Source: Stereum hirsutum FP-91666 SS1 (taxonomy: Eukaryota > Basidiomycota > Agaricomycetes > Russulales > Stereaceae). Taken from it: a DNA stretch of 64,000 nucleotides. The stretch lies in contig NW_006763132.1 of assembly GCF_000264905.1 (NCBI RefSeq), positions 1,643,870-1,707,869 on the forward strand, in the 5' to 3' direction. Position 1 is the first letter of the stretch, and each line of letters begins with the position of its first letter. Of the stretch, positions 47,396 through 61,460 are shown piece after piece. A program made the translations under genes and the position numbers. The notes below the pieces were generated by a model, which was not told where the DNA came from, did not search any database, and worked only from the letters and a program-made list of their open reading frames with translations.

Positions 47396-50300
47396 CTATG
47401 CGCTATCAGCAGCTCCACCCGAACCCGCACCATCCTCAGCCCCGTCGGTACGCGTCACACTCACATTCGCCTTCTCCGCCGCCTTCCTCACCGGCCGTGG
47501 CCTTGGTCTGGGTTTCGAAGGTGTCGTCACGTCTTCTGAACCACCAGCACCCTTCGATCCGCTCGCAGATCCTGCCCCTCTGGAGCCCGCATCGCCTTCG
47601 TAATCCGGGTCGTCTCCGTCGTCGTTACTTGATGATGCACTAGCAGCCCGTTTGCGTTTTCTTGTAGATCCATTGGCGGTGGATGTGGCGGCACCTCTCC
47701 CTCTCCCGCGGCCTCTCGCGGCAGCGCCACCTCTGCCTTTGCCCCGTCCCCTTCCACCTCCTCTGGTATCGCCATTGGTGGCACTCCCACCAGCTTTCTG
47801 TCTGTTTTTTCCCTTTCCCTTCGAGTTCGTCTTCTTCCCACCATCCTTCTCATCTCCACCATCACTTTGAGCCCCCGACTCCGATCCTGAATCACTTTCT
47901 TTATTCTCTCCCGCATTCTGCTTCTGCGCCTTCCTGAAATCGCTCACGACCTGTTGTAACCTCTTACTCGTATACGCCTGTTTCTTCCTAGGCGCAGCGC
48001 TGCCCATCCCACCAGAAACGTCGAAGAACTCGTTGAGGTTGCCTTGTCGGTTGAGAGCTTGGACTTGACCTCGCTTGTTCATTTTCTGGATGATGGGCAG
48101 GAGGAGTTCTTCGACTTTAGAAGATGACCAACCGAGTTCGTCTTGGAAGAGACTATTGTGGCCACGCAGGTCATGAGATCAGCGAGAACGAGAACAAACG
48201 AGTGAGAACGGGGAGACGTGCCTGCGGAGACCGTCGAGGTCTGGAAGACCCCATTTGAAGGGTTCTTCAGAGTCGTCGACGGTCGGGTGATAATATGCCT
48301 CTTTCTGTGAGGCCAATCACCGTACCGTCAGCCTGAATAGAGGATAAACATCAATAAGGGCGGAAAGACATACCACGGCAGCATTGGGCCAGTCGTCTGG
48401 AAGGTACAGATCTTTGAACCGCTTCTTCTATGAATTCGGCCGCCCATAGTCAACACTACATCTCAGTCCTGAAACGAAAGGGAGAACTTACAAATCTCTT
48501 CTTGAACTTGCTCTTGCTCTCCTCCGGCCTATCTCTGCCACTCTGCACCTTCACCCACCATTCTCTGAAATCACTCAACGCATCATCCCCGTGAAACTCC
48601 TTCAACAGCTCCATCGCCACCACCGGTCCCACCCCTGGCAAACCCTCCGTATAATCACTCCCTAGCAGATATGCCAACTGCACGAGCTTATTCCGCTCCA
48701 GTCCAAGCTCGCGCGCGAGGTCGGACAGCAAAAAACATTCTACGGTTTTAGACTGATTGAACATATTCTTAAAGACGCGCAGGCCGCCGAAGAGAAAGAC
48801 GTCGGAATCGTCAGTGATGATACCCTCGACGAGGCCGAGCTGGACGAGTGTGGCACACTGGGCTTCGGCTTCCATGGGCGCGGTGATATACGGAATGCCA
48901 AACAGACGGAGCATGATCTGCCGGCCAAATGCGTCAATCAGCCTTCTTTGCCTTAGTGGAAGAGACGTGTGAGAGTGCAAAAGAAAACCAACCATGATTT
49001 GAGAGATCATATGCTGCGTCACATCTTCCGAGTCCCTCATCGCCGCCTTCCTCTGCTGGTTCAGCCCCTTAATCTCCTCGTCGATCTCCCTCCTCACGCT
49101 ATCCAGATCCTTTCCCTTCACCTGCGAGATGAACCGGGCAAACTCGCCCTCCTCAGCATGTGGATCCATCTCTTGCGCCGCATCCCAATTGTCTTCCTTC
49201 GTGTGGGTTGCGCTCGAGGGAACTGGCTCATTCCCGTTCCCGTTGGCATTTACGTCAAGATGGGATGCTTGATGCGAGACGGGCGAAGGAGAGCGAGACC
49301 AGTCCGTCAAAGCTTCGTCGGATTCATCAGGTTCTTCTGCGGGTTTCGAAATCGATGCGGACGGTGTAGGTGGTAGAAGTGTAGAACCGGTGCCACTTTG
49401 GCTCGACACTCCTAGTTGGGTCGAAGACATGGTACGAATGGGGGTAGACGGTGCGTTCAGGACAGTATCTTCGTACAGGTCCTCCTCATGCTCTGGTACC
49501 AGCGGTGAATCTGATGGATTATCCCCTGCTTCCACCAGAGGAGGAGAAGCGAAGCGTATACGAGAAGGAGCCGTAGATGGGGCGGTTGAGTCGATAAGTT
49601 CAGTTAGGGGCGCCACTTGCGGAGAGACGATGTCATCAGCTGGGATCTGCGCAGGCAAAGGCACACTGGGAACAATCTCTTCCATGTCTTCGTCTGAATC
49701 ATCCATAACAACTGGAGGTGGAAGTGGTGAATGTGATCTTCGAATAGAATCTGGCATTTGAGGTTCGATGGATAATCCAGCGGTCATATGCGTGGGTGCT
49801 GGGACATAAACTTCCTCCATGTAGAGATCGTCGTCCGAATCCTCCAATACAAAGGGTGCATCTTCTACGACTGTCGCAGAGGGAGATGTCCTCCGCAGAT
49901 CTGGAGAGCGCGAAGGCCCCATGGTTGGCAAGTTTACAGGCTTCGTTGGCGTCTTGTTTCTGGTCGAAAGTAACAGTGTAGGTTTTCCGAACATAGACGA
50001 CTCAGGGATCATGCTGCCCAAGGTAGATGATCGTCTAGGTGTGGACACCGATGATAAGCGTTGCGGTGTCGGTCCTGCACCGGCAATGGCGAGCGCCGTC
50101 TCGAGACGTCCTGGAACATACAGGTCCTCGTCGACATCCGAAGAGACCGTTGTGTTGAGATCGTCGGGTAGTTCAACGCTGTCAGTGGTAGACGTGGCGT
50201 CCATAGAACGAGAATCAGCGTTCCCAATTGACATTCTGGAAGCCTCGAGAGCCCGTCGAAGAGCTGCTTCCTCCTCAACTTCCATAGATTCCTGCATCGC

Positions 50301-51953
50301 CGCGAGGAGCTCGGGGTCTTCATCAAACGTGGCATCTTCGTCTTCATCTCCTGCACCAAGTGAGACGCGTGGAAGTTCGTCGTCTTCAGGTTCAAAAAGC
50401 GGTCGCGGCCGCGACTCGATTCTTTGTTTCTTCTTGGGAGGGTTTTTAGATTTCGACGGCGACTTTCGAAAGGATGGGAGTTTAGCATGGGTATGTGAAC
50501 TAGAACGACGAGATATAGAGGCCAAAGCCATTCCCCGTCGATATTCCCGGAGGTCAGGGTCCATGGGGGCTGCTTGAGGGCTGTCATTGCCGTTGAGTAT
50601 GATCCCCAAAGACGAAGTGCAAAAACATACATCTCGACTTCCTCCATGTCCATATCGCTGTCCTCATCCTCGACTGCGCCACCCATGTTTTCGGTCCCGT
50701 TCTCTCTCGCCCTAGCTTTCACATCTTCCTGGTCGATTTCAATCGGCTTCGCCCTCGAACTCCCTTCCTCCCTAATCCCCAACACCCAACCGCCTTCTTT
50801 CCCTTCGTTCTTGATCAAGACATACTCCCTATTTCTCTCGCTCGCCACTCGTATCGGTATAGACACATGCGCCTGTCCGATGGTATCCGTCGTGACAAGC
50901 AACTGCTGCGTCAACGAGTTCCGCTGCTTCAAGTTCTTGATCTGCTCCTTACTAAAATCCAATGCCGTCCTCGACTTCTTCAACATATTCTGCAGCCTTT
51001 TATACGACGTCTGCCGTGACTTTAACCTCAAGTCGCCGATGATCTCGTACTGCACTTCGGTCGGAAGCTCGCGAAAGGCGGGCGAAGAGACGTCGAAGTC
51101 TTCAGGCCGCATCTCTTCGATGAAATCACGGAGTTCTTCCTCCGTGGCGAGACGAGGATCCGGAGCGGAGGAGCGTGTGGCGGACGAAACGCGGGCGTCA
51201 AGGTCGACGTCGGGAAGACGGTATGGGTCGTGGTCGTGCCATCGGTTCTTCTTCTTAGTCGATGAGGACGAAGGGAGAGTGTTCGGGACTTCTTCCTTTC
51301 GAGCGGGGGTCTTGGGTAGCGAACTGTCGATGTCCTCGAGGAACACGGTGTTCTCGTCTATAGTGACGGGACCAGCGGCCTTTCCCTTGCCCTTCGACGA
51401 GCTCCCGACCCTGCAACGGCTTGATATGGGCATCACAGACAAAAATTCATGTTTAGAAGGTACATACGTATGATTGAGGGCTTCGCGGCGCATCTGAGCT
51501 GCTAGCAGACGTTCTGCGATCTTGACATGACTCGCCGCCGCTCCGCTCTTTTTCTTCTTTCGCTCAGACTATCAACCACATCAGTTTCGAGGTTCATGGG
51601 TAGCTTCGTGCTCAAAGCTCAGAGACAACGCACTATGGTCGCCCTCTTCAACGCCGGTGCTCCTCCATCGAACACGAACACAGGCTTGATGCCGTAGAAC
51701 AGAAGCTTGCATATCCGCCTGAGAAACCCAACAAGGTGTGCATTGACGAGCGCACGACCTTCTTTATCGCGCATAGTAGCTTGAAACTGGTATATCCAAA
51801 TACTCGAATCGATGGCCATGGCCTTGCCTTCCATCGTCTCAAGCCTGCATACATATTGTAAGTCAGTACAAGAACCGTGACCAGGAGCAGTACGACGCAC
51901 AAGACAGGCCTGCCAACAGGCGAAAGAAGGTCCCACAGAGATTTGACACCCAT
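47396..51953 (-). CDS. RAD2: DNA repair endonuclease RAD2/XPG
   Basis: Seen: nine exons, 51953..51901, 51844..51634, 51568..51468, 51410..50631, 50580..48993, 48917..48492, 48427..48374, 48304..48222 and 48152..47396 (1350 aa). N region: MGVKSLWDLLSPVGRPVL, MAIDSSIWIYQFQA (catalytic Asp), FVFDGGAPALKR (second Asp). A long acidic spacer of about 800 residues follows, as in XPG. I region from about residue 905: LRLFGIPYITAPMEAEAQCA, GIITDDSDVFLFGG, YLLGSDYTEGLPGVGP (H2TH). The C-terminus has QGNLNEFF, a PCNA-binding (PIP) motif, then a Gly/Arg/Lys-rich tail with many GRG and RGG repeats. Known: XPG/Rad2 cuts 3' to bulky lesions in nucleotide excision repair and stabilises TFIIH. One intron (75 nt, 48,918-48,992) is a multiple of three and open; one has a GC donor. 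Confidence 0.9.
48153..48221 (-). other. GC-AG intron in RAD2
   Basis: Donor CGCAG|GCACGT, acceptor CACAATAG|TCTCTT, 69 bp. It joins LPDLDGLR to SLFQDELGWS, the conserved order; the GT four bases later (CAC|GTCTCC) is out of frame. Confidence 0.62.
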
Positions 51954-55740: not shown

Positions 55741-55790
55741 TTATTTCCGGTGTCTTGTTTTTATTTCCGGACTCTGGAAAGGTATATAAG
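55741..55790 (+). promoter_or_regulatory. Candidate promoter: two TTATTTCCGG boxes plus TATATAAG
   Basis: TTATTTCCGG occurs at 55,741-55,750 and 55,761-55,770, followed by a strong TATA box TATATAAG at 55,783-55,790. There is no protein gene just downstream, but the structured repeat array lies on the same strand 1.5 kb further. A non-coding transcript starting near 55,815 is inferred. Confidence 0.45.
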
Positions 55791-56620: not shown

Positions 56621-57294
56621 GATCTCTGGCGACACTCTACTTGGGCGACACTCTAGAGCTTAGGCGACCCTCCTTTGTTTCTTTCCTTATCCTTTCTTCC
56701 TCTTTTCTTCGTCGTTAGTCTCTCCACTGCACACACACCCTTCGTCATCGACCTTCGCCTCGACTCTTTCGTACTATATTCTTCCTTCCTTCCCTTTCAC
56801 CTTCCACCTCGTCTCACTTTGTCTCTTAGTTCGTAAGTAGTCCCTCATCTATGGCGACACCTCTCAGCTCAGGCGACTTCTACCTTCCCTTCCTCCTTCC
56901 GTCTGATCAACTCATCGCTACTTATGCTCCCTTCCTCCCTCATACTATATAGGTACGTTGTCTCTCCACTTGGGCTACACTCGGCTGGGATACACTCGGG
57001 CTTAGGCGACTTCAAGTTCGCTATCCTCTCCCTCCCTTCTTCTCCTTCCTCCTCTATCATCGACTCGTAAATAAGTTAAGGTCTCACGTGGTCTAAGGTC
57101 TAGGTCTAGATATATTGCGTGATCTTAAGGTAAGTATAGTCGTAGATAATATATTGTGTGATCTTGATGTTCTCCACGGTGCGTCATATGTAAGAGCTTG
57201 GTCCTGGTCTTGGTCTCGGTCTCATCTTAGGCAACATCCACCGCCCACCCATTCCTCCCTTGTCTTGCGTGTCTGTCTGAATTCAAGGTAAGTC

Positions 57295-57366
57295 CCCCTG
57301 GGAGAGCGTCGACCTTGTCGTGGTCCAGGGGCTCAGTACCTCTTCGGGGGGAAGCCAACAGACGCT
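57295..57366 (+). ncRNA. Structured element copy 1
   Basis: Stem a CCCCTG/CAGGGG; b AGCGTC/GACGCT; second hairpin CCTC-TTCG-GGGG (one U-G pair). Donor GTGCGT starts at 57,373. Confidence 0.65.
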
Positions 57367-57644
57367 CGCAAGGTGCGTTTCCTTTCTATCCCGTGTCACT
57401 GATTTTCTCTAGCGCCTCTTACAGGAGTTTTTCGACACGAAACTCATGCATGTCCGCGGGGAACACGTATTGATCTGTGAGTTTTTTCTTTCGATACACC
57501 TATCCTGGTGACCACGCTGACGTCTTCTTCAGTTTTCCTACAGGTGTGTGATTGTGTGAATGTAAGAGATTGGCATCGACCTGCCTCAACAGCAGCGCCC
57601 TCGACGCAACCTCGACACCGGGCCCCAAGAGATTCAAGACCGGT

Positions 57645-57717
57645 CCCCTTGGCAGAGTGTCGACCTTGTCGTGGTCAAGGGGCTCAGTACCTCTTCGGAG
57701 GGAAGCCAACAGACGCT
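57645..57717 (+). ncRNA. Structured element copy 2
   Basis: Stem a CCCCTT/AAGGGG, a double compensatory change from copy 1. Stem b AGTGTC/GACGCT (U-G pair). Second hairpin CCTC-TTCG-GAGG. Donor GTACGT at 57,724. Confidence 0.65.
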
Positions 57718-57930
57718 CACAAGGTACGTCTCTTTCTTTATATTATTACACTGATATTTTTTAGATTTTTTTATAGGCGTGTCAGGTTGTGGTGAGTCTC
57801 CGTTACTTTGTCTCGTTCGCGTAGATTTGTTTTACTGATGTATTGTGTTTAGGTTTTGTAAAAGGTGCGTGAGTGTGAGTGTGAGTAAAGGTACGTGCGG
57901 CGCTCTGCTCGCGAAAGCAGCATCGTCCTT

Positions 57931-58002
57931 CCCCTTGGTAGAGCGTCGACCTTGTCGTGGTCAGGGGGCTCAGTACCTCCTCGGAGAAAGCTAACAGACG
58001 CT
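57931..58002 (+). ncRNA. Structured element copy 3
   Basis: Stem a CCCCTT/AGGGGG (U-G pair); b AGCGTC/GACGCT; second hairpin weakened (CCTCCTCGGAGA). Donor GTAGGT just after GAAAG. Confidence 0.6.
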
Positions 58003-58284
58003 CGAAAGGTAGGTCTCTCCTCGTTCTATGTCGCTGATTTCTTTAGATTCTCTTAGAGCAGTGGCGTTCGACAGGAACCTCAAGATTTCCACGAGGAATA
58101 TGTATTAATCAGCGAGTCTTCCATTTCAATGCGCGCATACTCATGACCACATTAACTTCCTCCTCAGTTTTGCTGCAGCTGTGTGACTGTGTGAATGTGA
58201 CAGAACGGCGTCGACCTGCCTTCAACAGTAGTGCCTTCTAGTACACAACCTCGGCACCGCGCTCCAACGAGCTTCAAGACCGGT

Positions 58285-58368
58285 CCCCTGGGATAGCGTC
58301 GACCTTGTCGTGGTCCAGGGGCTCTAGTACCTCGGAGTTCGATCCTCTGAGGGAAGCCAACAGACGCT
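58285..58368 (+). ncRNA. Structured element copy 4 (long class)
   Basis: Stem a CCCCTG/CAGGGG; second hairpin is the long form CCTCGGAG-TTCGATC-CTCTGAGG (8 bp, T-loop-like loop). Followed by TACTAACAG then ATGAGT, where copies 9 and 10 have a GT donor. Confidence 0.65.
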
Positions 58369-58915
58369 TACTAACAGATGAGTGGGCTCGCGCTTTGATC
58401 TACATTTTTTTCCTGACCCGTTCTGTTCAGTTTTATTTCAGGCCAATACGTGCCAGTAAGCTCAAAACGATCGACGCCCTGAGGTCCAACACTCGGGCAT
58501 GACTACGGGTCCGGTCGACGACTCCAATCAAGCACGACATGAACGTGCGGTGGTCTCTGGGTCATCTTGGGCTGGGGCGTCTTGGGCTGGGTCTCTAGGT
58601 GTATTGGTTCTCTTTGTCTACTGAGTCTTTTCGTCTGCTGAGTCTGTTCGTCTGCTTGGCCTCTTTGTTTACTAGGTCTTGTGGGCTTAATCTCTACGCT
58701 GCTGGGTCTCGTGGGCTTGCGCTCTAGGTCTCTAGGTTTCTTGGCTTGGGCTGGTCTTGCTAGCGCTAGGCGAAATCGACATCGACCTCACGCCCGAGCC
58801 CAAGCGCGACATCAACATCGCCCACGACGCGGCGGGCTCAAGCACGACTTCGACATCTCACGACCGAGCTCAAGCACGACATCGACACCGAGCTCCAACG
58901 AGCTTCAAGACCGGT

Positions 58916-58987
58916 CCCCTGGGATAGCGTCGACCTTGTCGTGGTCCAGGGGCTCAGTACCTCCTCTGAGGGAAGCCAACAGATGCT
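58916..58987 (+). ncRNA. Structured element copy 5
   Basis: Stem a CCCCT G/CAGGGG; b AGCGTC/GATGCT (G-U pair kept); second hairpin CCTC-CTCT-GAGG. Donor GTGCGT after GAAAG. Confidence 0.65.
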
Positions 58988-59249
58988 CGAAAGGTGCGTG
59001 TTTTTCTGTATATTATATCGCTGATTTATGATAGATTGTCTTATAGGACTCGAGTGCCGTTGTAGTGAGTCTTCTACACACTCTTTCGTTCGCGGAGATG
59101 TTTTACTAACGTGCTGGATTTGATTTTTCCTGTAGGTATGTGAGTGTGAGTAAGTGAGACCAACGCTCTGTCTTCAACAGCAACGTCCTCGCCGGCCTTA
59201 ACATCCTCTCAACATGTCAGGATACGATTCACCTCAAAATACTCAAGAC

Positions 59250-59322
59250 CCCCTTGGCAGAGCGTTGACCTTGTCGCGGTCAAGGGGCTTAGTACCTCTT
59301 CGGAGGGAAGCTAACAGACGCT
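59250..59322 (+). ncRNA. Structured element copy 6
   Basis: Stem a CCCCTT/AAGGGG; b AGCGTT/GACGCT (U-G pair); c GACC/GGTC with loop TTGTCGC; second hairpin CCTC-TTCG-GAGG. Donor GTGCGT follows ACAAG. Confidence 0.65.
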
Positions 59323-59598
59323 CACAAGGTGCGTCTCTTTCCTTTTATTATGTCACCGATTCGTTTTAGATTCTCTTACAGGCGTGCGGAGGTGGTCCGG
59401 GTGAGTCCCTCTCGCTTTCGTTCGTCTAGATATTTTATTGACGTTTTGTGTTTAGTTTTTTTCATAGGTGAGTCAGTGTGAGTGTGAGTCAAGGTTTGGT
59501 CAAGGTAGGTTTTTGTCGAGGTAGGTCTCTTTCCAGGTGTGAGTAAAGGTAGGTCCGTTTCACAGCGGCGCTCTGCTTGCGAAAGCAGCATCGTCCTT

Positions 59599-59671
59599 CC
59601 CCTTGGATGAGCGTCGACCTTGCCGTGGTCAGGGGGCTCAGTACCTCTTCCGAGGGAAGCTAACAGTCGCT
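59599..59671 (+). ncRNA. Structured element copy 7
   Basis: Stem a CCCCTT/AGGGGG; b reduced to AGCG/CGCT; second hairpin CCTC-TTCC-GAGG. Donor GTAGGC follows AGAAG. Confidence 0.58.
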
Positions 59672-59956
59672 CAGAAGGTAGGCTTCTTCTTTATCACTGT
59701 GTCACTGATTTCGTCTGAATTCTCTTACAGGACTGGTGTCCGACGCGCGCGAAACCGATAGATGCCCGCGAGGAACGTGTACTGATATGTGAGTATTCCC
59801 TTTCGTTGCGAATATACTAGTGACTACGCTGACTTCCCCTCAGTTGTTCTATAGCTGTGTGAACGTGTGAACGTGAGAGAACGGCGTCGACCTGCCTTCA
59901 ACAGCAGCGCCTTCGACATAACCTCGACACCGGGCCCCAAGAGCTTCAAGACCGGT

Positions 59957-60029
59957 CCCCTGGTAGAGTGTCGACCTTGTCGTGGTCCAGGGGCTCTAGT
60001 ATCTCTTCGGAGGGAAGCCAACAGACGCT
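59957..60029 (+). ncRNA. Structured element copy 8
   Basis: Stem a CCCCTG/CAGGGG; b AGTGTC/GACGCT; second hairpin CTC-TTCG-GAG. Donor GTAGGT follows GTGTG. Confidence 0.62.
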
Positions 60030-60495
60030 CGTGTGGTAGGTATGTCGACCGGTGAGTTCTTCGCCCAATCTCGTTCACCTATATCTTTGACTGACGTTTT
60101 ATGCAGTTTTATTTCAGGGCGGTGCGTAGCGGTAAGCTCAAGACGATCGACGCCCTGATGTTCAACACTCGGGCACGACGACGGGTCCGGTCGACGACTC
60201 CAATCAAGCACGACGTCAACACCGGGCGGCGGTCTGGGGTCTCTTGAGCTGGGCTTCTGGGGCATCTTGGGTTGGGTTTATGGGTCTGCTAGGTCTCTCA
60301 GTCTGCTGGATCCTGGGGCACCTTGGGCTGTGTCTGGCGGCTGTCTTCGTCTTCTGGGCCTCGCGGGCTTGGTCTCTAGGTACCTGGGCTTGGGCTGGAC
60401 TTGCTGCGGCTAGTCGACATCGACATCGACATCGACCTCACGAGCGAGATCAAGCACGACTTCGACACCGAGCTCCAACGAGCTTCAAGACCGGT

Positions 60496-60578
60496 CCCCT
60501 GGGATAGCGTCGACCTTGTCGTGGTCCAGGGGCTCAGTACCTCGGAGTCCGATCCTCTGAGGGAAGCCAACAGACGCT
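60496..60578 (+). ncRNA. Structured element copy 9 (long class)
   Basis: Stem a CCCCTG/CAGGGG; long second hairpin CCTCGGAG-TCCGATC-CTCTGAGG; followed by ACTAACAG|GTGAGT. Confidence 0.65.
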
Positions 60579-61030
60579 ACTAACAGGTGAGTGGGCTCGC
60601 GCTTTTTTGATCCACATCTTTTTCTGATTCATTCTGCGCAGTTTTATTTCAGGTTCAGCATTGCGGTAAGCTCAAGACGACCGACGCTCCGATCACAACA
60701 ATCAAGCACGACGATGAGTCCGGCCGACGACTCCAATCAAGTAAGTACGACATCAATACTAGGCGGGGCTGTCTCTGGGGCATCTCGAGCTGGGTCTCTA
60801 GGTCTGTGGTTTCTTTGGGTCTGCTGTCTCTCTTCGTCTGCTTGGTCTCTTTGTCTGCTGGGTTTCGTGGGCTTCATTTCTAGGCTGCTGGGCTTGGGCT
60901 GGTCTTGCTGGAGCTAGGCGACGTCGACATCGCTCACGACCGGGCTCAAGCACAACATCGACATCGACAGGCTCACGAGCGAGATCAAGCACGACATCGA
61001 CACCGAGCTCCAACGAGCTTCAAGACCGGT

Positions 61031-61113
61031 CCCCTGGGATAGCGTCGACCTTGTCGTGGTCCAGGGGCTCAGTACCTCGGAGTCCGATCCTCCGAGGGAA
61101 GCCAACAGACGCT
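61031..61113 (+). ncRNA. Structured element copy 10 (long class)
   Basis: As copy 9 but the second hairpin reads CTCCGAGG on its 3' side, turning a G-U pair into G-C. Followed by ACTAACAG|GTAAGT. Confidence 0.65.
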
Positions 61114-61214
61114 ACTAACAGGTAAGTGGGTCATCAGCACTTCGATTCTCATGTCCTTTCTGACGCATCTCGTGTAGTTTTATTTTTCTACAGGTACGTC
61201 AGTGGGGTTGTTGT

Positions 61215-61335
61215 TTTCGCTCTCGCTTTCCTCTTTTCGCTCTCGCTTTCCTCTCTTCGTTCTCGCTTTCCTCTCTTCTCTCTCGCTTTCCTCTCTTCGC
61301 TCTCGCTTTCCTCTTTACGCTCTCGCTCTCATCTC
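61215..61335 (+). repeat. Minisatellite of CTCTCGCTTTCCTCTTCG-like units
   Basis: About six imperfect 19-20 bp units (TTCGCTCTCGCTTTCCTC) in tandem. Fully pyrimidine-biased on this strand. Confidence 0.7.
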
Positions 61336-61376
61336 CATTTCTCTATGCTTGTCTCAAGTCTTCAGCTTGAGTCCCT

Positions 61377-61460
61377 CCCCTGGTAGAGCGTCGACCTTGC
61401 CGTGGTCTAGGGGCTTTAGTACCCCGGAGTCCGATCCCCTGGAGGAAACCAACAGACGCT
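61377..61460 (+). ncRNA. Structured element copy 11 (terminal, diverged)
   Basis: Stem a CCCCTG/TAGGGG (G-U pair); c GACC/GGTC with loop TTGCCGT; b AGCGTC/GACGCT. The second hairpin is not cleanly kept, and no donor follows directly. Probably the last unit of the array. Confidence 0.55.

Follow-up and report, generated by a model that had tools for sequence, protein, structure and literature searches.

An array of eleven probable HDV-like ribozymes of the fungal variant type in the genome of Stereum hirsutum

Eleven copies of a structured motif were located on the (+) strand within positions 57295-61460 of the window, which denotes the whole 64,000-nucleotide stretch of the Stereum hirsutum genome analyzed here. 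Judged from its fold and signature residues, each copy is very probably a self-cleaving HDV-like (hepatitis-delta-type) ribozyme of the fungal variant type. A sequence-only reading of this DNA had noted eleven repeated structured copies and selection acting on RNA structure, of which the former is confirmed and the latter is supported by pair-keeping changes across more than 100 copies. Its further proposal of a new, unassignable RNA class is not upheld, since the element fits the HDV-like ribozymes, for which a fungal variant was described in 2017 (PMC5640933).

Copy 1 (57295-57366), for which the cut is predicted between 57294 and 57295, was resolved into P1 (57295-57301/57325-57331), P2 (57305-57310/57361-57366), P3 (57312-57314/57322-57324), and L3 (57315-57321). 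A putative loop E is formed by AGTA (57335-57338) with GAA (57351-57353), between which P4 is placed, and J4/2 (57354-57360) contains the catalytic-type C at 57355. Copies 2 (57645-57717), 5 (58916-58987), 6 (59250-59322), and 8 (59957-60029) are all on the same (+) strand, as are copy 3 (57931-58002), in which AAA replaces GAA at the loop E position, and copy 7 (59599-59671), which has one P2 mismatch and was not found by the strict descriptor. A long P4 was observed in copies 4 (58285-58368), 9 (60496-60578), 10 (61031-61113), and 11 (61377-61460; +), the last of which is the final copy of the array. The copy search gave 12 rows for these 11 copies, copy 1 being matched in two registers. A generic descriptor of HDV-like ribozymes matched 10 of the 11 copies and nothing else on either strand of the window, and gave 1 match in 40 dinucleotide shuffles (one strand). 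This indicates that the array is beyond chance.

The stems called a, c, and d in the sequence-only reading proved to be real, and correspond to P1 with an exact register of 7 bp, P3 plus one flanking pair (with the 7-nt loop), and P4, respectively. Examples of the P1 pairs in the window are CCCCTGG/CCAGGGG, CCCCTTG/CAAGGGG, CCCCTTG/CAGGGGG, and CCCCTGG/CTAGGGG. The pairing of AGCGTC with GACGCT, which had been overlooked, constitutes P2 and crosses stem a to make a pseudoknot. The copies therefore show the nested double pseudoknot of HDV-like ribozymes, composed of P1 (7 bp), P2 (6 bp), P3 (3 bp), the 7-nt L3, P1.1, P4, and J4/2, where P1.1 is a single pair and the 3' strands of P3 and P1 abut with zero gap. 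Some copies contain mismatches in P1 or P2. A hairpin between P1 and P2 was recognized by eye in four copies (L077-L080).

Throughout the Stereum hirsutum genome, 137 good copies have been found so far at 33 loci, with arrays holding up to about 15 copies; two looser descriptors also list chance matches, which were not counted. For the residue counts, 136 of 139 model matches were parsed, the dropped ones being a copy with A->G in J4/2, a degenerate one, and one truncated by masked sequence. Copies are anchored in the parser by their resemblance to the core, and with this anchoring position 1 of L3 is U in 136/136 and position 6 is G in 135/136 parsed copies. These correspond to U23 and G28, the published L3 signature of HDV-like ribozymes (PMC3386971). 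When counted at a constant distance from the 3' end, the C of J4/2 is invariant (139/139). The P1.1 pair is GC in 103, UA in 30, UG in 1, and other in 2 of the 136 copies. A hairpin just upstream of the cut site is marked in type B groups and is not seen in most type A groups (29 of 33 groups covered).

The AGUA and GAA letters, which we take to be the loop E motif at P4, occurred together in 125/136 copies and in 10/11 of those in the window. The cleavage-site pair is C-G in 130/136 copies, including 11/11 in the window, and P2 and P3 are separated by one base in the register fixed by the parser, in which P2 pairs; this base is G in 135/136 copies. Li and Breaker (2017) described fungal HDV ribozyme variants with 230 representatives in 26 fungal species, and defined them by C-G at the cleavage site, loop E at P4, and an extra P2-P3 base (PMC5640933). 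The Stereum copies share these three departures as well as the nested double pseudoknot, though the extra base is G here and most commonly C in the variants as that article presents them (PMC5640933). Because the three departures are present together, and two fungal-variant constructs of this kind cleaved (PMC5640933), the motif is most readily assigned to a known kind of ribozyme. The general HDV consensus has an R-Y pair at the cleavage site, which is not the pair found here, and C-G is the stated departure of the fungal variants, which cleave and are included among the HDV-like ribozymes (PMC5640933).

Some observations point against the class assignment. The +1 base is C (T in 2/136), which departs from the general HDV consensus, and no HDV model of Rfam matches. 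C at this position is documented in the fungal variants (PMC5640933), and five trypanosomatid ribozymes are described as carrying C at the cleavage site (PMC4035085). Rfam 15 gave 0 matches at the gathering score over the whole window and no HDV family at lax E-values for the array and 18 other loci. This blindness of Rfam 15 may explain why the motif seemed new at first sight. Weak sub-gathering matches to miRNA, snoRNA, frameshift-element, and lncRNA families were taken as chance.

Covariation was evaluated on an alignment of 55 copies selected from 70, in which 98.0% of cells were paired compared with 91.9% after shuffling; two-sided cells numbered 77 against 28.0 in shuffles, and slid controls were at most 54% paired. 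Seven of the 15 copies left out had a longer or shorter J1/2 (57645, 57931, 59250, and 59599 of the window, L040:3459, L043:2275, and L039:4599), and the other eight were set aside for redundancy or oddness. When 12 pairs were counted on all 139 copies, 96.7% were paired versus 93.8% in shuffles. A tree of 82 distinct cores gave 10 two-sided, 41 one-sided kept, and 28 broken-pair events, compared with 0, 19-22, and 60-62, respectively, when partners were slid by one. This tree excludes a copy with a wrong P1 5' strand (L044:2976) and two with a core insertion or deletion (L043:8770 and L048:3499), which remain in the 136-copy residue and codon counts; with these three included, the events were 11, 46, and 50. 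P1.1 and P3 each changed on both sides in one event, at the split between types A and B. The first pair of P2 varies among AU, GC, GU, and UA, P3 pairs between AU and GC, and the third pair of P4 among UA, CG, and AU.

A TATA box in the context TATATAAGAGGCC was located at 55783-55788 (+), and is a putative core promoter of the array transcript. It is common to the array and to L040, L043, and L045, with the first ribozyme 1.5-1.65 kb further downstream. The pattern TATA[AT]A.{0,4}[AG]GGCC, composed after the motif had been seen, occurred once in the window, for which mononucleotide shuffles predict 0.24 occurrences per strand. A 5' splice motif was found within 24 nt after 88/102 type A copies, compared with 11.6% of control placements, and type A copies mostly lie 6-9 nt upstream of such intron-like motifs. 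For example, a candidate intron at 57373-57424 (+) begins 6 nt after copy 1 and contains GTGCGT, CACTGAT, and then either TCTAG ending at 57412 or TTACAG ending at 57424. Copy 11 has no 5' splice motif in the 24 nt that follow it, and past 61520 BLAST detected no similarity to the 11 other type A loci. No tRNA was detected in the window or, by ARAGORN, in 26 loci, and Pfam detected an XPG domain in one of five window ORFs and none in the other four.

In three classes, the sequence upstream of the ribozyme is conserved and that downstream has diverged. Classes C and D and terminal B2 copies show this asymmetry clearly, B1 weakly, and B3 and B4 not at all, while both flanks are poorly conserved at type A ends. 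In 3/4 pairs compared, unit homology stops no more than 16 nt from the ribozyme, and L083 and L084 remain alike for about 85 nt past it. Some unit classes thus end at the ribozyme, and class D units have the TATA box as their left edge. The setting, with arrays at exon-like ends in TATA-bearing, apparently non-coding units, appears to be new.

According to the proposed mechanism, the first 7 nt of the ribozyme RNA would pair to form P1, joined in the fold by P2, P3, P4, and the single pair of P1.1; self-cutting would take place immediately 5' of P1, with the cytosine of J4/2 serving as the catalytic base. By analogy with the class, the upstream product would end in a 2',3'-cyclic phosphate and the ribozyme would begin with a 5'-OH. 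The window ribozymes would form the 3' ends of exon-like pieces in one long, apparently non-coding unit extending from the TATA box at 55783 to about 61.5 kb, so that cutting may divide the transcript into defined pieces and fix the 3' terminus of the RNA that precedes each ribozyme. Flank asymmetry, units ending at the ribozyme, TATA boxes, and splice motifs suggest transcript processing as the likely job of the ribozymes, for which we see about an even chance. A more specific model, held somewhat more tentatively, posits about thirty non-coding Pol II genes, driven by TATA boxes, with RNAs that would end in single or arrayed HDV-like ribozymes in place of cleavage and polyadenylation; ribozymes in arrays would compete with splicing and release many pieces per precursor.

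The genomic placement can be compared with that of other HDV-like ribozymes. The fungal variants, as far as PMC5640933 presents them, differ from the Stereum copies in that the latter lie in splice-motif arrays and TATA-bearing units and include four with the J1/2 hairpin. R2 and large HDV-like ribozymes (drz-Agam-2-1) resemble the Stereum copies in a P1 of 6-7 bp, a variable P4, and tolerance of J1/2 insertions, and the large ones carry extra domains between P1 and P2, where the L077-L080 hairpin is located (PMC3774820, PMC4908430). They differ in genomic setting and with regard to loop E and the P2/P3 base, both described as deviating from the general consensus (PMC5640933). Theta ribozymes of gut phages likewise lie directly 3' of another RNA, whose 3' end the cut would set; however, they are described as minimal, without P4, and beside tRNAs (PMC10879173), whereas the Stereum copies keep P4 with loop E. 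Among IMG/VR viral contigs, the strict pattern gave 0 matches and the loose core pattern 12 stretches. The best model score was 16.6 bits, and this stretch was dismissed as chance, as no proper P1 or J4/2 was read in it.

Alternatively, the ribozyme may be part of a mobile element, as is the case for R2, L1Tc, and SIDER, with the arrays and single loci being insertions or their remains. This is compatible with the ribozyme assignment, and we regard it as unlikely. Pr77-type ribozymes (L1Tc, NARTc, SIDER) share the HDV-like fold and cleavage 5' of C1, and an L1Tc 5' primer starts with CCCTGG (PMC4035085); known HDV-like ribozymes are frequent in non-LTR retrotransposons as reported in the literature consulted, and the units here are dispersed, multi-copy, and sharply edged on the right in some classes. 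However, Pr77-type ribozymes mark the retrotransposon 5' end (PMC4035085), whereas the Stereum copies of classes C and D mark the 3' edge of the unit, and the left edge of class D is the TATA box. Furthermore, none of the 29 RVT_1 matches genome-wide lies within about 60 kb of a located copy, and a simple search at five loci found no target-site duplication, the longest shared strings being 4-6 nt.

Still less probable, in our view, is that the copies descend from the HDV fold and have lost the ability to cut, serving as structural elements for protein binding, splicing control at nearby 5' splice sites, or nuclear retention. The closeness of type A copies to 5' splice motifs and the P1 or P2 mismatches are in keeping with this, and active cutting within exons would sever the spliced RNA. 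Yet the J4/2 C and the L3 U1/G6 residues, which are tied to catalysis in the class, are invariant or nearly so, and fungal relatives cleave (PMC5640933). A protein-coding exon family was rejected as scarcely credible: the type A peptide STLSWSRGS...EANRR has a frame open across the element in 83/103 copies and the same 3'-end phase in 81/103, but its distinct codon variants are 17 non-synonymous versus 6 synonymous, both sides of pairs change together, and window copies 9 and 10 were read to contain a stop in that frame. As the sequence-only reading noted, reading frames differ among copies; in all three frames, most codon variants of the gapless core are non-synonymous.

HDV-like ribozymes have, to our knowledge, few natural roles besides those in viruses and retrotransposons. 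In Stereum hirsutum, they precede intron-like stretches, and in some classes form the 3' edge of promoter-bearing units. As Rfam 15 misses these copies, other fungal ones may be unannotated. With 137 copies found so far, this single genome would make ribozyme-made 3' ends in a eukaryote directly testable.

The eleven copies claimed in the sequence-only reading at 57295–61460 were confirmed; they lie on the forward strand of the window, are 72–84 nt in size, and have a start-to-start spacing of 286–631 nt. In a MAFFT alignment, the copies shared extended blocks free of variation, and P4 came in two lengths. The three stems described in that reading were retained, but a fourth pairing (P2), between AGCGTC near the start and GACGCT at the end, had been overlooked. 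It crosses the first stem (P1), so that the fold is a nested double pseudoknot. The exact register gives P1 (7 bp from nucleotide 1), J1/2 (mostly 3–4 nt), and P2 (6 bp) on the 5′ side, followed by one G, P3 (3 bp), and the 7-nt loop L3, with no gap between the 3′ strands of P3 and P1; J1/4, P4, J4/2, and the 3′ strand of P2 complete the 3′ side. This helix order is the HDV-like ribozyme layout given in PMC4908430. A descriptor requiring a perfect 7-bp P1, a perfect 6-bp P2, a 3-bp P3, U1 and G6 in L3, and C-N-R-A in J4/2, which was composed once the copies had been seen but from features published for the HDV-like class, matched 10 of the 11 copies and gave a single match in 40 dinucleotide shuffles of one strand. 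No further match was obtained on the forward strand of the window, and none on the reverse strand. At 61216–61335, between the last two ribozymes, a pyrimidine-rich 20-nt unit is present in six tandem copies.

A pattern search of the genome assembly (46 Mb, 38 contigs) allowing up to 2 mismatches yielded 162 matches, as compared with 32 for the reversed pattern. Together with DNA searches, it located copies at 33 or more loci, including the window; the copy number is a lower bound because it draws on part of the pattern matches and on 40 scored candidates per DNA search. A covariance model, proposed earlier along with an Rfam search, was built from 55 copies, which match by construction, and gave 139 matches in 33 loci (137 at ≥52 bits and two at 22–25 bits); Rfam 15 gave no HDV-like match, either in the window at gathering score or, at lax E-values, in the array and 18 other loci. 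Type A copies, with P3 of ACC/GGT, occupy 12 of the 33 loci, among them the window. Type B and others, with P3 of GCC/GGC and L3 of TCTTCGT or similar, occur singly or in small groups, mostly away from type A loci. Type C copies (loci L077–L080) carry, between P1 and P2, a 30–34-nt insert that can fold into a hairpin; large HDV-like ribozymes hold extra domains at this site (PMC4908430).

The position-1 U of L3 was present in all 136 copies compared and the position-6 G in 135, a pair called a signature of the HDV-like class in PMC3386971. When located by a constant distance from the 3′ terminus of each match, the catalytic-type C of J4/2 was invariant (139/139), as was the A two places on. 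The base preceding P1 was T in 112, C in 16, and A in 8 of 136 copies, and never G. PMC5640933 describes 230 variants of HDV ribozymes from 26 species of fungi, which depart from the general consensus in three respects: the cleavage-site pair is C-G, a loop E replaces part of P4, and P2 and P3 are separated by one additional base; variant constructs from P. chrysogenum and A. niger cut at the expected site. The same C-G pair was found here in 130/136 copies, and loop E, as AGUA and GAA together, in 125/136. A single base also separates P2 from P3 in the register that pairs P2, although it is G in 135/136 copies and most commonly C in those fungal variants. A C at +1 is also on record for five trypanosomatid HDV-like ribozymes (PMC4035085). 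Hence, the array that had seemed to fit no known RNA class is well supported as HDV-like ribozymes of the fungal variant, and the copies are likely self-cleaving.

The covariation anticipated in the sequence-only reading was borne out. In the 55-copy alignment, 98.0% of cells were paired versus 91.9% after shuffling, with two-sided changes in 77 cells versus 28.0, and sliding partners by 1–3 columns left 28–54% paired. For the 12 nested pairs over all 139 copies, pairing was 96.7% versus 93.8%, and two-sided changes numbered 53 versus 12.3. The P1.1 pair (n = 136) was G-C in 103 copies, U-A in 30, U-G in 1, and other in 2. When the changes were placed as events on a tree built from 82 distinct cores, with three faulty or indel copies left out, we counted 10 two-sided events, 41 one-sided events that kept the pair, and 28 involving a broken pair, versus 0, 19–22, and 60–62, respectively, with partners slid by one. 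Keeping the three copies in gave 11, 46, and 50, and 7 of these 50 broken-pair events fall at the second P1.1 pair, which is not formed in this ribozyme family. P1.1 and P3 each change once on the tree, where types A and B part, so P1 and P2 carry most of the weight of the argument.

Mean identity for classes C, D, and terminal B2 was 83–91% in the 100 nt upstream of the ribozyme and 39–66% in the 100 nt downstream, against a background of 32%. B1 exhibited a weak form of this asymmetry (79% and 69%), which was absent in the 100-nt flanks of B3 and B4, and both such flanks were poorly conserved at type A ends. In three of the four pairs from classes C and D, unit homology ends no more than 16 nt from the end of the ribozyme; the exception, L083/L084, continues about 85 nt past it. 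By eye, 22 of the 31 loci inspected carry a TATA box shared within their class on the upstream side of the first ribozyme, including the window array (55783, forward strand); at the other 9, a box was either missing or not seen to be shared. The TATA box forms the left edge of homology in class D and lies about 235 nt inside it in class C, and type A homology extends at least 790 nt further left. No Pfam domain was detected in the ORF over the 5′ part of the array, and variants inside the element were mainly non-synonymous in each of the frames. In class C units, a G-rich segment (GGGTGGGTAATCTG..CAGGCATGATCGCACC) is also repeated several times in tandem ahead of the ribozyme (L083, about 1515–2000, reverse orientation). 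Many type B units (L050–L053, L057, L039, and L044) have conserved hairpins, and some of these units a T-run, immediately 5′ of the predicted cut site. Upstream of the array, an XPG_I domain protein is encoded at 48459–50663 on the reverse strand, and its best named relatives are from Russulales (Dentipellis, Bondarzewia, Auriscalpium, and Heterobasidion); by this protein, the host is an agaricomycete near that order.

A 5′ splice motif follows within 24 nt of 88/102 type A copies, mostly after 6, 8, or 9 nt. For random placements, the frequency was 11.6% on the same strand (n = 1,947) and 6.1% on the opposite strand (n = 1,929). Branch-like and 3′ splice motifs were present as well for 74/102, versus 4.9% and 0.7% of the controls, these counts not being independent because the copies are related. 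Many type A copies have TACTAACAG or a near form, which resembles a branch-point consensus joined to AG, after P2 and right ahead of the 5′ splice motif. In four arrays (window 57285–57295, L040, L043, and L045), the first ribozyme comes directly after a 5′ splice-like motif (AAG GTAAGT, GTGAGT, or GTGGGT), with a C between the motif and P1; this first ribozyme may thus sit at an intron start rather than in an exon.

The comparison of copies establishes the fold and its conservation; as members of this class, the copies are expected to cut, and their position suggests a purpose. A Pol II transcript would traverse the whole unit, and each ribozyme would fold while emerging and cut 5′ of its own P1, leaving a cyclic phosphate on upstream pieces and a 5′-OH on downstream pieces. 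In small units, one RNA would receive its 3′ end from the cut; in arrays, cuts would fall between exon-like pieces and compete with the introns that follow. The open-licence literature searched, as far as its text was available, held no description of a comparable setting, and the interest of these ribozymes lies in their copy number, their arrays with splice motifs, and their gene-like units.
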